From Rahnella inusitata (GTDB lineage Bacteria; Pseudomonadota; Gammaproteobacteria; Enterobacterales; Enterobacteriaceae), in NCBI RefSeq assembly GCF_003263515.1, contig NZ_JYDE01000031.1, positions 1-64,000 on the forward strand: a stretch of 64,000 bases of DNA. Reading direction: 5' to 3'. The notes under the pieces are model-generated. The model had not been told where the DNA came from, searched no databases, and was given only the letters and a program-made list of their open reading frames with translations. A program made the translations under genes and the position numbers. Positions 5,834-63,941 of the stretch are shown here, piece after piece; position 1 is the first letter of the stretch, and the number at the start of each line of letters is the position of its first letter.

Positions 5834-7792
5834 TCAGGCGACGAACGAATGCTGATAACGGTGCAGCATGTCGGTCAGGCGCCGCACCGGTTCGGTGACT
5901 TTCAGCGGCGCGTCGTATTCCACCAGTTTTTCCTGATACTCCCCGAGCTCACTCAGCAAGCGCTGATAATAATACGTCCGCTTTCCTTCGCCCGAGGCTG
6001 ACACTACGTGGTCAGCCGTATTACGGATTTTCTTATGGAAGGCCGACAGTTCGTCGTTCACCGGCACTTCCGCCAGCTTCATCCGCTGATGCGCGATTAT
6101 CAGCATCAGCGCCAGGCGGTATTTACCGATGTCGTTCGGGAACATCACCAGCAGCTGATTCAACTGATGGTATAACGCAGGCAGATGGTTCTCGCGGCGG
6201 CGATAGGCTTTGGTGGTCAGCGCGGAAACGGCGCTGCTCATAAAGCGGTTAAGCAGCGTGCGGCCCGTTTTCTCCCGCGATTTATCACGCACCACCAGCA
6301 GCACCACCATTGCAATCACCGTACCGATCGCCTGACCGGTGACGTTATCCAGAAACGACGTCACGTTGAATTTCATCGGGTTACTCAGAACCAGAATATT
6401 GATGGTCCCCGCCAGCAGCCCAAGCATACCGAGGCGGCGCTTGGTCACTTCAATACCGATGAAGAAGGTGAAAATCCCCAGAGACAGACACAGCAGGAAC
6501 AGGCTTTGCTGCGTCGCGGGCATGATCAGCATAAACATCATCGACCCCACCGGGATCGCCAGCAGCATACCGACGATAAAGTCCATCGCCATGCCTTTCG
6601 GGTTAGGCGTGCGCATCGCCAGCGAGGTCACGACGGCGATAATCACCACGCAGCCGCTGCCCGACGTCCAGCCGGTCCACAGCCACATCAGGCAGCCGAT
6701 GGCGGTCGCGGTAAAGGTGCGCAGGCCGTTAATCAGCGCATGATGGCGCTCCGCCGAAGCAGGTCGCACCACCACTTCGCTGTCCAGCACGCTGCTTTCA
6801 ATACTGCTGATGCTGCTATTAGTGTGAACGCCTTTCATCAGCAACAGCGCACGGGTAGCCGCTCCGGCCCAGGCGCTGATGGTCATCAGGACGTTATCAC
6901 TGTGCGAACCGGTAATGGTCTGGCGCAGCAGTTTCAGCCGGCGGTGTACATCCGCGATGGTTTCCGCGGGTTCATCGAACATCGCCTTCAATTCCGGAGA
7001 CAATCTTTCCGGCGTGTTTTGCAGGATCAGATAGGTTTCGCAGGCCTGCGTAATCATGCTCAGCGAGGTGCTGTGCAGCGCTTTCAGACGCCGGTTGCAG
7101 CGCTGCCAGCGTGATGATTCCATCATCAGACTGCTGCGCATGCCGTTGAGCGCCGTGGTGCTTTTCACCAGATTATTCCACGATTTATCAATATCTTCCT
7201 TTGACGCGTTGTTCACGCAAATCCGCATCAGCGCGAACTGATCGAGCAACAGCTGACTGACGGCGCGGTCGATATCTTTTTTGATAGAACGGGGAGAAAA
7301 CAACAGATCAGCGACGATCGCACAACAAATCCCGAGGACGATTTCACTGCAACGCTCTACCGCAAACTGCGGCGTTTGCAGCGGCGTGGCGGCGGACGTG
7401 ACGACGATAATCAGCGCGGTGTAACCGGCCAGACCGAGCGCATAGGAGTTTTCGACGCGAACCAGCGAAGACCACCAGGTGCAGACGCCCGCCCAGATAC
7501 AGCACAGGAGCAGCATCACCACCGGTGCGCGCGCCGTGGCGATCACGATCACCAGTGCGGCCAGACAGCCGATAAAAGTGCCGATAACGCGCAGAAAACC
7601 ACGGTGGCGGATGGCACCGGCAAACGGCTCGCCACCGGCCGCCAGCGCAGGGCCGGAGGTCACGATGGCGGCGGTCATGGCCGACCAGCGCGGGGTTTCG
7701 AGTTGCAGATAGAACCCGAGCACCAGCGCGCCGAGGATCGCGAACGTCAGCTTAAACGCAAAACGGACACGGGGAATAAGTACGCTATTCAT
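5834..7792 (-). CDS. aaeB: p-Hydroxybenzoic acid efflux pump subunit AaeB
   Basis: Inner-membrane subunit of the AaeAB pump that exports aromatic carboxylic acids. The 652-residue product (E. coli 655) is a FUSC/aromatic-acid exporter family protein with two membrane bundles (about residues 15-180 and 355-500), each followed by a soluble domain. It opens with [21 protein letters not shown] and contains [13 protein letters not shown], typical of the family. It is the last gene of aaeXAB, 9 nt after aaeA. Confidence 0.95.
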
Positions 7793-60459: not shown

Positions 60460-60646
60460 GGCATGCACCGGTAGAAGAAAGAAGACGCCCAGTTTACGGG
60501 TTATGGCGGCATCAGAGCCAGATTTTGCTGCTGCTGTGCACGAAAAAATGCGCAAGAATCTGCAACTCACCGCAAGCCGTTGAACGCCAACGCCGCCGCT
60601 TTCCCGCACACTTCACTCAGGCCAATATTTTTAATGAGAGAAGTCC

Positions 60647-61558
60647 ATGAATGCACTGCTTTATATCTCGGTGATTATTATCTGGGGCACGACCTGGTTT
60701 GCGATTTACCTGCAACAGGGCGATGTGCCTGTGACGGTGTCGATTTTTTACCGCTTCCTGCTGGCGGCGGTGATCATGCTGGTGGCGCTGCTGGCCGCAC
60801 GTCGCCTGCGTCGTCTGGCGCTCAAAGACCACCTGTTCTGCATGGTGCAGGGCTGCTGCGTCTTCGCCTTTAACTTTTACTGCTTCTATCACGCGGCGGC
60901 TTACATCACCAGCGGGCTGGAATCGGTGATTTTTTCGATGGCGGTGCTGTTTAACGCCTTCAACGGTATGCTGTTTTTCCGTCAAAAGCTGGCACCTGCG
61001 GTAATCCCGGCGTCCCTTCTCGGGCTGGCGGGGATCGTCACGCTGTTCTGGCATGACCTGAGCGCTGCCCACATCGCACCGGAACTGCTAAAAGGCATCG
61101 GCCTCAGCCTGCTCGGCACTTACGGTTTCTCGCTGGGTAATATGATCAGCGCCCGCCATCAGCGCCGCGGTCTGGACGTGCTCTCGACCAACACTTACGC
61201 AATGTTCTACGGCACCGGGGTGATGGGCGTACTGAGCCTGTTTCAGGGCGCTTCGTTTGCCATCGATATGACCCCGCAGTACCTCGGTTCGCTGGTCTAC
61301 CTTTCGGTATTCGGATCGGTACTCGCCTTCGGCATTTACTTCACGCTGGTAGGCCGCATCGGTGCCAGTCAGGCCGCCTACAGCACCCTGCTCTTCCCGC
61401 TGGTCGCCCTGACGGTTTCCACCTTCTACGAAGGCTATCAATGGCACACCAACGCCGTCGTCGGACTGGCGCTCATTCTGCTCGGTAATCTGGTGATGTT
61501 CTGCCGCCCGAGCTGGCTGGAAGTCTTCAGACGGAAAGTGGCGGTGGTGAGAAGTTAG
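60647..61558 (+). CDS. EamA-family (DMT) metabolite exporter
   Basis: Ten-helix drug/metabolite transporter, 303 residues, two EamA repeats (about 5-130 and 150-290). It starts NALLYISVIIIWGTTWFAIYLQQG, the typical family opening with WG-TW. The ATG has GAGAGAAG upstream. Substrate unknown. Divergent from the AraC regulator. Confidence 0.9.
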   Translation: MNALLYISVIIIWGTTWFAIYLQQGDVPVTVSIFYRFLLAAVIMLVALLAARRLRRLALKDHLFCMVQGCCVFAFNFYCFYHAAAYITSGLESVIFSMAVLFNAFNGMLFFRQKLAPAVIPASLLGLAGIVTLFWHDLSAAHIAPELLKGIGLSLLGTYGFSLGNMISARHQRRGLDVLSTNTYAMFYGTGVMGVLSLFQGASFAIDMTPQYLGSLVYLSVFGSVLAFGIYFTLVGRIGASQAAYSTLLFPLVALTVSTFYEGYQWHTNAVVGLALILLGNLVMFCRPSWLEVFRRKVAVVRS

Positions 61559-61570
61559 CGGTCTTTTTGC

Positions 61571-61607
61571 AGCCTAAAGATTGCCCTTGGCAGGCAATCT
61601 TTAGGCT
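61571..61607. repeat. Perfect 15-bp inverted repeat after eamA
   Basis: AGCCTAAAGATTGCC (61571-61585) and GGCAATCTTTAGGCT (61593-61607) around CTTGGCA. It contains the stop codon of the converging 61601-61894 frame. There is no T-run on either side. Confidence 0.65.
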
Positions 61608-61894
61608 CCGTTCAAAAAGGCCACAGCTTCTCCTACGGTAAAAATTGTCCACCCCGGCAATTTAACGGGTACAAGATTAATAGCTATTTTCTCTGCGGCC
61701 CACGCAGCGTCCAGAGTTATGACCGTATTTCGCTCATCGTTGACCTGATGGCAAAGTTGAGGCAAAGAGTATCTTTGAGTTTCTAACATTTGAAGATCAC
61801 CATGAAGTGAAGTGTCCGTTAGGGAATAAATATCTTTCCAACTTTTGGCAGTGAGAAGCTTTTGTTGGTTTGTGCTGGGATTGGAGTACTTCAT
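61601..61894 (-). CDS. Hypothetical ORF overlapping the ZorA-like gene
   Basis: 97 codons from an ATG at 61894, in a different frame and overlapping the end of the ZorA-like gene by 98 nt. No ribosome site is visible and the sequence is not recognised; the tail DAAWAAEKIAINLVPVKLPGWTIFTVGEAVAFLNGA looks protein-like. It may be a separate coupled gene, or the remainder of a longer reading frame after a frameshift. Confidence 0.4.
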   Translation of the reverse strand: MKYSNPSTNQQKLLTAKSWKDIYSLTDTSLHGDLQMLETQRYSLPQLCHQVNDERNTVITLDAAWAAEKIAINLVPVKLPGWTIFTVGEAVAFLNGA

Positions 61895-62291
61895 GTATAT
61901 GGTCAGGCGTTACGGTCACTGGCGAAGCGATACCATTGTTCTTAGATGACGGCAGTAATCTATCTAAAATATTAAAAGCTAATGCACCCACCATTCCGAC
62001 AATACTCGTAATAAACGCTGTTTTTAGGCCGCCAAGTAAAACAGGAATACTGTGTTCTATATTGGTTGTATCGAAATGCAGAAGCCCGATGACAACCCCT
62101 ACGAAGGTTCCGAGGATCCCAAGCGCAGTCATCAAAGTAGGGGCATATTCCAGGAAATGTGATGATTCACCTTTTTTTCTGGCATATAAAGCACCTAAAA
62201 ACACCGCGATAACAGCCCAAATAAAACAATCAGTGATCGTTGTCGAGTTCATTGTACTCAGCAAAGATTCCAGCACTTTTGATAGCATCAT
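61797..62291 (-). CDS. Truncated ZorA/MotA/ExbB-like membrane protein
   Basis: 164 residues, with AAGGG upstream of the ATG. Three membrane helices: FIWAVIAVFLGALYA, LMTALGILGTFVGVVIGLL and TAFITSIVGMVGALAFNIL, with SIPVLLGGLKTAFITSIVGM between. This is the MotA/TolQ/ExbB proton-channel pattern, and FLEYAPTLMTALGILGTFVGVVIGLLHFDTTNI-type sequence is typical of ZorA of the Zorya anti-phage system. Full ZorA has a long coiled-coil tail of several hundred residues after TPDHIHEVL-type sequence; here the frame ends about 30 residues later, and no ZorB, ZorC/D or ZorE gene is adjacent. AT-rich surroundings suggest horizontal origin. It may be a decayed remnant or a minimal form. Confidence 0.65.
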   Translation of the reverse strand: MMLSKVLESLLSTMNSTTITDCFIWAVIAVFLGALYARKKGESSHFLEYAPTLMTALGILGTFVGVVIGLLHFDTTNIEHSIPVLLGGLKTAFITSIVGMVGALAFNILDRLLPSSKNNGIASPVTVTPDHIHEVLQSQHKPTKASHCQKLERYLFPNGHFTSW

Positions 62292-62649
62292 GATCCCTTT
62301 GAAACCTATACAGAAGCGAAGGTTTATACCTTAGCTTGTACAAATTATTACGATGGAGTCTGAAAACTGTTGTTGTCAGAAAAAGGAAACATAAAATACC
62401 AAAAAATAAATGATAAAGGCATGATAAATATCATTCTTCATCACTTATTAATTTTATTGTAAATTGCATTATTTCACTTAAGTGGATGCTTAGTTTTCAT
62501 CTATTTAAAAAATAACTTTAAGAGAAAGAAAAAACATAAAGAAATAATTCGTACAAAATTCAACTCGACACATCTCTTCCTATCATGCATACCTGAAAGG
62601 CCGCATCCAGCGAGATGCGCGCCCTGCAAATAAAAATGAGGATACGAAG
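62292..62649. other. AT-rich spacer with Fur-like palindrome
   Basis: 358 bp, no credible gene; divergent promoters of the ZorA-like gene and the tautomerase are expected. ATGATA-AA-TATCAT (62421-62434) is a perfect palindrome. Confidence 0.45.
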
Positions 62650-63030
62650 ATGCCATTTGTTCGAATTGATATGGTTGAAGGAAAACCCGAAACCTACCGT
62701 AAAACTGTGGGCGATACCATTTACGAAGCATTGCGTACCCAGATGAACGTGCCTGAGAACGATCGGTTTATTGTCATAGCCGAACACTCTCCGGAAGAAA
62801 TGATGATTTCTCCGGATTATCTGGATATCCAGCGCAGCCCTAACTGCATCGTCATTCAGATAACACTTAACACCGGCCGCACGGTGGAAATGAAGAAAGC
62901 CTTCTACCACGCCGTGGCCTATGGCCTGCATGAAAGAGTCGGTCTGCGTCTGGAAGATGTCTTCATCAGTCTGGTGGAAGTGCCGAAAGAAAACTGGTCC
63001 TTCGGCAACGGTGAAGCGCAGTACGCGTGA
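62650..63030 (+). CDS. Tautomerase-family protein
   Basis: Tautomerase superfamily (4-oxalocrotonate tautomerase / MIF-like) protein, 126 residues. The catalytic base should be Pro at position 2 (MPFVRIDMVEGK), exposed after Met removal. The pattern GKPETYRKTVGDTIYEALRTQMNVPENDRF and IQITLNTGRTVEMKKAFYHAVAYGLHERVGLRLEDVFISLVEVPKENWSFGNG is that of the tautomerase_2 group. GAGGATACGAAG precedes the ATG. Substrate unknown. Confidence 0.88.
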   Translation: MPFVRIDMVEGKPETYRKTVGDTIYEALRTQMNVPENDRFIVIAEHSPEEMMISPDYLDIQRSPNCIVIQITLNTGRTVEMKKAFYHAVAYGLHERVGLRLEDVFISLVEVPKENWSFGNGEAQYA

Positions 63031-63031
63031 T

Positions 63032-63187
63032 TTAAGCAGAGTAAAGCCGCTTCAGGCCAACAGTGTTTCCCTGCCGGTGACGCCAGCCCATCGTGTAGAT
63101 GTGCGTGGTAGCGACAACACAGGGTGAACCGAGGTTGTTCACCCGCACTTCGTCCGGCGCGCCACGCAGGCTGGTGCTTATCGGCAT
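63032..63187 (-). CDS. Small hypothetical ORF after the SDR gene
   Basis: 51 codons, beginning 10 nt after the SDR stop with a strong GAGGGGG upstream of the ATG. The product starts MPISTSLRGAPDEVRVNNLG and includes PCVVATTHIYTMGWRHRQG; no membrane segment, not recognised. The ribosome site and spacing argue for a translated small protein co-transcribed with the SDR. It ends 1 nt past the converging tautomerase stop codon. Confidence 0.5.
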   Translation of the reverse strand: MPISTSLRGAPDEVRVNNLGSPCVVATTHIYTMGWRHRQGNTVGLKRLYSA

Positions 63188-63197
63188 ACAAACCCCC

Positions 63198-63941
63198 TCA
63201 AACAATCCCCCCGTTCGCCTTCAGCGTTTGCCCGTTAATCCACGCACCGTCGGGGCCTGCGAGGAAAGCGACGACGGAGGCGATGTCTTGCGGCTGGCCG
63301 AGGCGTTCGAGCGGCGCGATTTTGGTGATGTTTTCAATCAGTTGCCCGGATTTACCGTTGAGGAATAAATCCGTTGCCGTCGGACCGGGCGCTACCGTGT
63401 TCACGGTAATATTGCGGCCACGCATTTCTTTAGTCAGGACACGGCTCAGCGCTTCCACTGCGGCTTTCGTCGCGGCGTAGACGCCATACGTCGGCTGATA
63501 TAATCCCACCACGCTTGAGGAGAAATTGATGATGCGGCCACCGTCGTGCAGATTTTTCGCCGCTTCACGCAGGGTGTTGAAAGTGCCTTTCAGGTTGATA
63601 TCAATCAGCCGGTCAAACGCGGCGTCATCGGTGTCGGCAATGGCGGAGAGCATCATGATCCCGGCATTATTCACCAGCACGTCAACGCCGCCGAACGCCT
63701 GTTCTGCGCTGGCAAACATCCGGCGGACAGCGGCTGCATCGCTGACATCAGCCTGTGCGCTGACCGCTTTTCCGCCCGCTTGTTCGATCTTACTTACCAC
63801 CGCATCGGCCTCAGCTGCGCCGCGTGCATAGTTCACGATCACCGTAAAGCCGTCCTGCGCCAGACGCTCAGCAATCGCCGCGCCAATACCGCGTGATGCG
63901 CCGGTCACCAGCGCCACTTTGTGTTGAGTCGAAGAAGTCAT
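63198..63941 (-). CDS. SDR-family oxidoreductase
   Basis: Classical short-chain dehydrogenase, 247 residues from the ATG at 63941 (AAGGAAAT upstream). Cofactor motif VTGASRGIGAAIAERL, VLVNNAGIMM, the catalytic serine in INFSSSVVG and YAATK tyrosine and lysine, then VNTVAPGPTATDLF. Asn-Tyr after the second strand (VIVNYARG) suggests NADP preference. It resembles 3-oxoacyl-ACP-reductase-like enzymes; substrate unknown. Confidence 0.9.
   Translation of the reverse strand: MTSSTQHKVALVTGASRGIGAAIAERLAQDGFTVIVNYARGAAEADAVVSKIEQAGGKAVSAQADVSDAAAVRRMFASAEQAFGGVDVLVNNAGIMMLSAIADTDDAAFDRLIDINLKGTFNTLREAAKNLHDGGRIINFSSSVVGLYQPTYGVYAATKAAVEALSRVLTKEMRGRNITVNTVAPGPTATDLFLNGKSGQLIENITKIAPLERLGQPQDIASVVAFLAGPDGAWINGQTLKANGGIV

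Follow-up and report, generated by a model that had tools for sequence, protein, structure and literature searches.

Where E. coli records annotate a complete operon of the type II Zorya defence system, zorA2, zorB2 and zorE lie consecutively on one strand. ZorA and ZorB reportedly form a 5:2 complex, and mutagenesis has indicated that the ZorA tail, peptidoglycan binding by ZorB and ion flow are important for defence (PMC11890865). ZorE is described in the same text as a nickase effector, which needs ZorAB at its native expression level. Host DNA is damaged upon over-expression of ZorE or phage attack, although it stays intact at native ZorE expression without phage (PMC11890865). A 2026 preprint assigns to ZorE a "central HNHc" and, among 59 ZorE leaves associated with Druantia III, reports a C-terminal nuclease-like extension in 53; a PD-(D/E)xK-like pocket is described for this extension (PMC13192584).

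Here, we describe a locus of Rahnella inusitata at which the two outer ends of such an operon lie directly next to each other. It is located in a window of 64,000 nt, which is the whole stretch of DNA analysed (positions 1 to 64,000 of contig NZ_JYDE01000031.1). The locus is best explained as a horizontally acquired type II Zorya operon that was inactivated by one internal deletion (probability of about 0.95). It is most likely a real yet ordinary remnant of an already known system, and none of the papers listed by a literature search was seen to describe this Zorya remnant. The case illustrates that one internal deletion can kill a defence operon and leave what appears to be a novel two-ORF system; with the frames annotated separately, a genome scan would list a "ZorA-like channel" on its own beside an "orphan" protein.

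Two overlapping frames and their identity

The ORF list of the window gives two frames on the minus strand, ORF1 (61797-62291, 164 aa) and ORF2 (61601-61894, 97 aa), which overlap by 98 nt (61797-61894) just as the initial annotation had described. The ZorA-like character that it ascribed to ORF1 is confirmed by profile searches, in which ORF1 matches the NCBIfam ZorA2 profile NF041792 with E = 1.1e-74 over positions 1-142 of 550 and the PADLOC ZorA2 profile with E = 2.5e-52; by these values, the likeness is far above chance. ORF2, which had been regarded as unknown, turns out to match ZorE (NCBIfam NF041791, E = 5.7e-38; PADLOC, E = 4.3e-20). Judged from these alignments, ORF1 corresponds to ZorA2 from residue 1 to about residue 141, followed by unrelated codons, and ORF2 is the last ~90 residues of ZorE, not a chance frame. 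ZorB and effectors had been taken to be missing; ZorB was indeed not found, whereas the C-terminal end of the effector survives as ORF2. The bit scores (252 for ORF1 and 131 for ORF2) do not reach the curated cut-offs for full-length proteins (700 and 600, respectively), as expected of fragments. Intact ZorA2 proteins align from the second ATG (62288), one codon downstream of the start listed for ORF1. The features of the locus are as follows.

61541 to 62549, no strand: AT-rich insert of ~1.0 kb, flanked by the genes of an EamA transporter and a tautomerase
62293 to 62300, minus strand: probable ribosome-binding site of zorA, AAAGGGAT 5' of the start, recognized by eye
61869 to 62288, minus strand: 5' part of zorA2, 140 codons, channel core; based on NF041792 1-142 and on alignment to E. 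coli and other ZorA2
61870 to 61894, minus strand: chance start of ORF2 within the zorA part
61860 to 61885, minus strand: presumed deletion junction, best estimate 61869/61870, with a margin of ~10 nt that is itself an estimate
61601 to 61870, minus strand: 3' end of zorE with its stop codon and roughly 89 codons before it, C-terminal nuclease-like domain; based on NF041791 269-358 of 358 and on E. coli ZorE, to which it aligns from residue 271
61571 to 61607, no strand: perfect hairpin of 15 bp, overlapping the stop codon of zorE

The hairpin may be the preserved 3' end of the operon, since hairpins are also seen by eye just 3' of zorE in 6 of 10 intact loci. It is followed by no T-run on either strand, and a terminator scan omits it while listing one weaker site elsewhere (1 found, 1.0 expected). 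A repeat or mobile element was considered for this hairpin and rejected, as the genome gave, besides the hairpin itself and its own inverted copy, just a 16-nt match.

The junction and the missing middle

The two pieces keep the order and orientation of the operon, with the start of zorA2 followed by the end of zorE. When aligned to the E. coli proteins, the ZorA similarity stops and the ZorE similarity starts at adjacent codons near 61869/61870. In ten intact loci (L010, L011 and L049-L056), the stretch between the two corresponding points is 2754-2914 nt long. This missing stretch spans the ZorA tail, the whole zorB and ZorE residues 1 to about 270, and the space between the two pieces is too small for ZorB. 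A sub-threshold match to the Pfam family HNH_3, at residues 222-242 of E. coli ZorE, falls within the lost part. The deletion ends near domain boundaries in both zorA and zorE, a point that counts against the preferred reading as plain decay. Past the junction, ORF1 continues out of frame for ~23 codons until a stop at 61797. The closest intact relative among the best 80 of 103 relatives shows 59% protein identity over the ZorA part, and with the nearest intact relatives 54-59% identical over this part (L049-L056), microhomology and the exact junction are not visible.

The initial annotation had suggested a frameshifted remnant of a Zorya-type locus. It was right as to the remnant, and the cause has to be replaced: a simple frameshift of one gene is rejected as the two frames stem from different genes, and the alignments point instead to an internal deletion of ~2.75-2.9 kb affecting three genes, of which the frame change is apparently a by-product. 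The condition named there, that both frames should be one continuous longer gene in homologues, does not hold literally, because there they belong to separate genes of the same operon, on either side of zorB.

Genomic site

The coding part of the insert has a GC content of ~42%, as compared with 50-61% in the flanks; upstream of zorA it is 28-33%, lower than in the coding part. Among 14 genomes of the genus searched for ZorE, the source is the only one with a match. The tautomerase gene (E<=1e-20) is present in eight of the 14, namely the source and seven others, and at six of these seven sister sites 30-83 nt lie between the aligned blocks on the EamA and tautomerase sides, as against about 1.03 kb here. 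The seventh sister site (L028:121-1440, on G002:C46) has a different insert of 1.3 kb with an Hcp-type T6SS gene (PF05638, 1.8e-18), and the spacer between the EamA-transporter and tautomerase genes may be a minor hotspot of insertion. Most simply, the source lineage would have acquired the island after its split from the compared sisters; the host species is represented here by one strain. No direct repeats are listed at the two ends of the insert, no integrase is found among its ORFs, and Rfam gave no match over 60500-63200.

Distant ZorA-like frames are present elsewhere in two genomes of the same genus, one of 732 codons (L006, on G004:C1) and one of 749 codons (L007, on G006:C6). Both are long like type I ZorA.

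Related loci

In the species-genome collection, an alignment scan confirmed 103 relatives, of which the best 80 were kept, and a viral scan added 5; an earlier pattern scan with ORF1 alone had given 55 matches, none of which was confirmed. In 83 of these 85 loci, a ZorA frame of at least 436 codons (stop to stop) is accompanied by ZorB downstream. The two exceptions are L090, which is cut by a contig end and is not judgeable, and L094 from Candidatus Enterovibrio escacola (6001-7640), where zorA is in pieces in different frames and neither ZorB nor ZorE was matched within the locus. The N-terminal part of ZorE is recognized by similarity to the E. coli protein in 62 of the 85 loci, in one of them (L107, at a contig end) over just 69 residues. 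Among the other loci, PADLOC identifies the third gene as a very divergent ZorE in each of the three tested (L102, L106 and L112); the third gene of L086 had no PADLOC match. L104, which is metagenomic and has a long ZorA, carries the C-terminal ZorE match directly after zorE in a 51-codon frame of its own, a split that is probably due to a frameshift.

Sixteen mostly Microbulbifer loci (L095, L102, L105, L106, L109, L112-L114, L116, L118, L120-L123, L125 and L126) have a shorter ZorA, of 436-472 codons, and ZorB, and gave no tblastn match to the N-terminal part of E. coli ZorE.

A ZorA stub with a detached ZorE end is found in none of the 85 loci, L090 being not judgeable, so that the check proposed in the initial annotation, whether homologues keep the stop of the stub and the overlapping partner, came out negative. 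This count bears on the short two-gene system that the annotation had offered as an alternative. A compact system of this kind would pair a tail-less ZorA-like channel with a small, translationally coupled partner encoded in the overlapping frame, and would account for two frames that are both open, for an overlap resembling that of coupled genes and for the plausible ribosome-binding site of ORF1. It has little place, however, for a partner that is the C-terminal end of ZorE and whose ATG occurs by chance inside the zorA part and has no upstream ribosome-binding site that can be recognized by eye, nor for the restriction of ZorE to the source among the 14 genus genomes. Together with its absence from the related loci, this leaves the two-gene reading unsupported and very improbable.

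Apart from the source, ZorA matches were found in six of 59 genomes in frames of 472-749 codons, and in six of 392 genomes in frames of 452-558 codons; among the 392, G411 is the only one to pass the ZorA2 cut-off. ZorE matches (E<=1e-10) occur in 18 of 394 genomes of the order, two of which, the Rahnella inusitata genome and G545, have the C-terminal piece alone. The ZorE of G516 carries an internal TAG.

On a Klebsiella plasmid (NZ_CP031815.1; L012:6001-7179), a 5' piece of zorA2 to which the PLSDB table assigns no gene is followed by an IS1 transposase gene. It is probably another decayed Zorya II.

The surviving ZorE domain

ORF2 covers what the preprint describes as the C-terminal nuclease-like extension of ZorE (PMC13192584). 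Unlike in intact ZorE, the extension is here severed from the HNH nickase. The structure of ORF2, modelled with 27 relatives, has a mean pLDDT of 84, with the first 12 residues below 50. Foldseek gave no match for this model at E<=0.001. A second-look structure alignment returned weak matches to PvuRts1I (Z 5.0), AbaSI (4.7), the catalytic domain of I-Bth0305I (4.5) and Vsr (3.2), interleaved with the unrelated mitoribosomal proteins (4.6 and 4.5) and UEV domains (3.5). The predicted fold is thus compatible with a PD-(D/E)xK/Vsr-like fold, which such weak and mixed matches do not prove. In the 28-row alignment of the C-terminal domain, the six invariant columns are invariant in ORF2 by construction, as ORF2 is one of the rows.

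The same domain occurs alone in G545 (L046:6273-6548, on G545:C49), where a solitary frame of 92 codons (NF041791 279-358) lies between a fis-like gene and fimbrial-type genes, as labelled by eye. This frame is either another remnant or a stand-alone domain gene. In L072 (3625-5934), a 770-aa GmrSD-type (type IV restriction-like) protein encoded upstream of a Zorya II operon has a ZorE-like domain at its own C-terminus, matched, like the frame in G545, by a profile of this domain, which suggests that this domain might be a module shared among defence effectors. That the surviving ZorE piece is the C-terminal nuclease-like domain, solitary in G545 as well, is only a mild novelty.

It is conceivable, with a chance of a few percent at most, that the operon is dead and the free C-terminal domain has been kept and is used, perhaps like the frame of G545. 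That ORF2 is predicted to fold alone would suit this reading, as would the solitary copy in G545 and the similar C-terminal domain of the GmrSD-type protein. However, ORF2 lacks 8 of the 22 columns invariant in ten intact ZorE, its start has no visible ribosome-binding site, and a sigma-70 consensus scan of 61500-62700 found no promoter (3.1 expected by chance). It is equally doubtful that the free domain, possibly with the ZorA stub, continues to be expressed and has been retained as a minimal element. By analogy with the copy in G545, the domain might for instance serve as a stand-alone DNA-acting part beside other defence systems, which we consider just as improbable. If the domain were still used, the locus would be a natural test of the role of the poorly understood ZorE extension.

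Probable history and present state

In the reading that we prefer, decay of a type II Zorya operon through an internal deletion, zorA2-zorB2-zorE would have entered the spacer between the two flanking genes (EamA transporter and tautomerase) by horizontal transfer and would once have been whole there. A single deletion of about 2.75-2.9 kb would then have removed the middle and inactivated the operon, leaving zorA, up to about codon 141, fused out of frame to zorE from about codon 271 on. An assembly artefact, by which the middle of an intact operon was dropped from what is a draft of 60 contigs, is the least probable of the alternatives, as the junction is inside a contig of 125 kb, a whole-family profile search found no further ZorA2 or ZorE pieces elsewhere in the genome, and a ZorB query without a positive control had no match there either.

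The remains presumably give no defence because the ZorA tail, ZorB and the HNH region of ZorE are lost. ORF1, if translated, would be an ExbB-like membrane stub without its ZorB partner, and the locus most likely has no present function. A cost of the operon possibly favoured its loss.

Of the columns invariant in ten intact members, ORF1 keeps 57 of 62 for ZorA2 and ORF2 keeps 14 of 22 for ZorE, whereas intact members, left out one at a time, keep 62/62 to 62/67 and 22/22 to 22/27, respectively; the comparison is rough, since several of the ten are near-duplicates. Neither surviving piece has acquired a stop, so that the loss may be recent, or one piece may still be kept. This state of decay would fit a fairly recent deletion and is no proof of selection.

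Comparison with known systems

Among known families, MotA/TolQ/ExbB (PF01618) is the more general one to which ORF1 belongs. ORF1 scores 23.8 bits, barely above the cut-off of 22.9, and this match is far weaker than that to ZorA2. MotA/TolQ/ExbB channels differ from ORF1 also in their partner: no ExbD/TolR/MotB/ZorB-like gene adjoins it, and its flanks are the EamA-transporter and tautomerase genes.

Two of the E. coli Zorya II operons (L010 and L011) adjoin a divergent pair of an STY4851/ECs_5259-family gene and a helicase gene. We take this pair to be Druantia III (DruH/DruE), probably; a DruH query of the source genome for the presence of Druantia III, carried out without a positive control, gave no match.

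A functional type II Zorya has a ZorA2 core with a long cytoplasmic tail, a zorB2 gene adjoining zorA2, and a ZorE with an HNH nuclease domain. At the present locus, just positions 1-142 of the 550 of the ZorA2 profile are covered, zorA2 has no neighbouring ZorB2 gene, and of ZorE positions 269-358 of 358 remain. Compared with the intact system, the locus thus lacks the ZorA tail, ZorB and ZorE residues 1 to about 270, and its pieces are out of frame. The surviving ends nevertheless lie in the same order and on the same strand as in the type II Zorya operons of E. coli (NZ_CP031609.1 and plasmid NZ_CP127005.1). The zorA part of ORF1 is 57% identical to E. coli ZorA2, and the alignment of ORF2 with E. 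coli ZorE spans residues 271 to about 354 of the latter. With ends that are homologous to ZorA2 and ZorE and are arranged and oriented as in the operon, the locus has what is expected of a descendant of type II Zorya.
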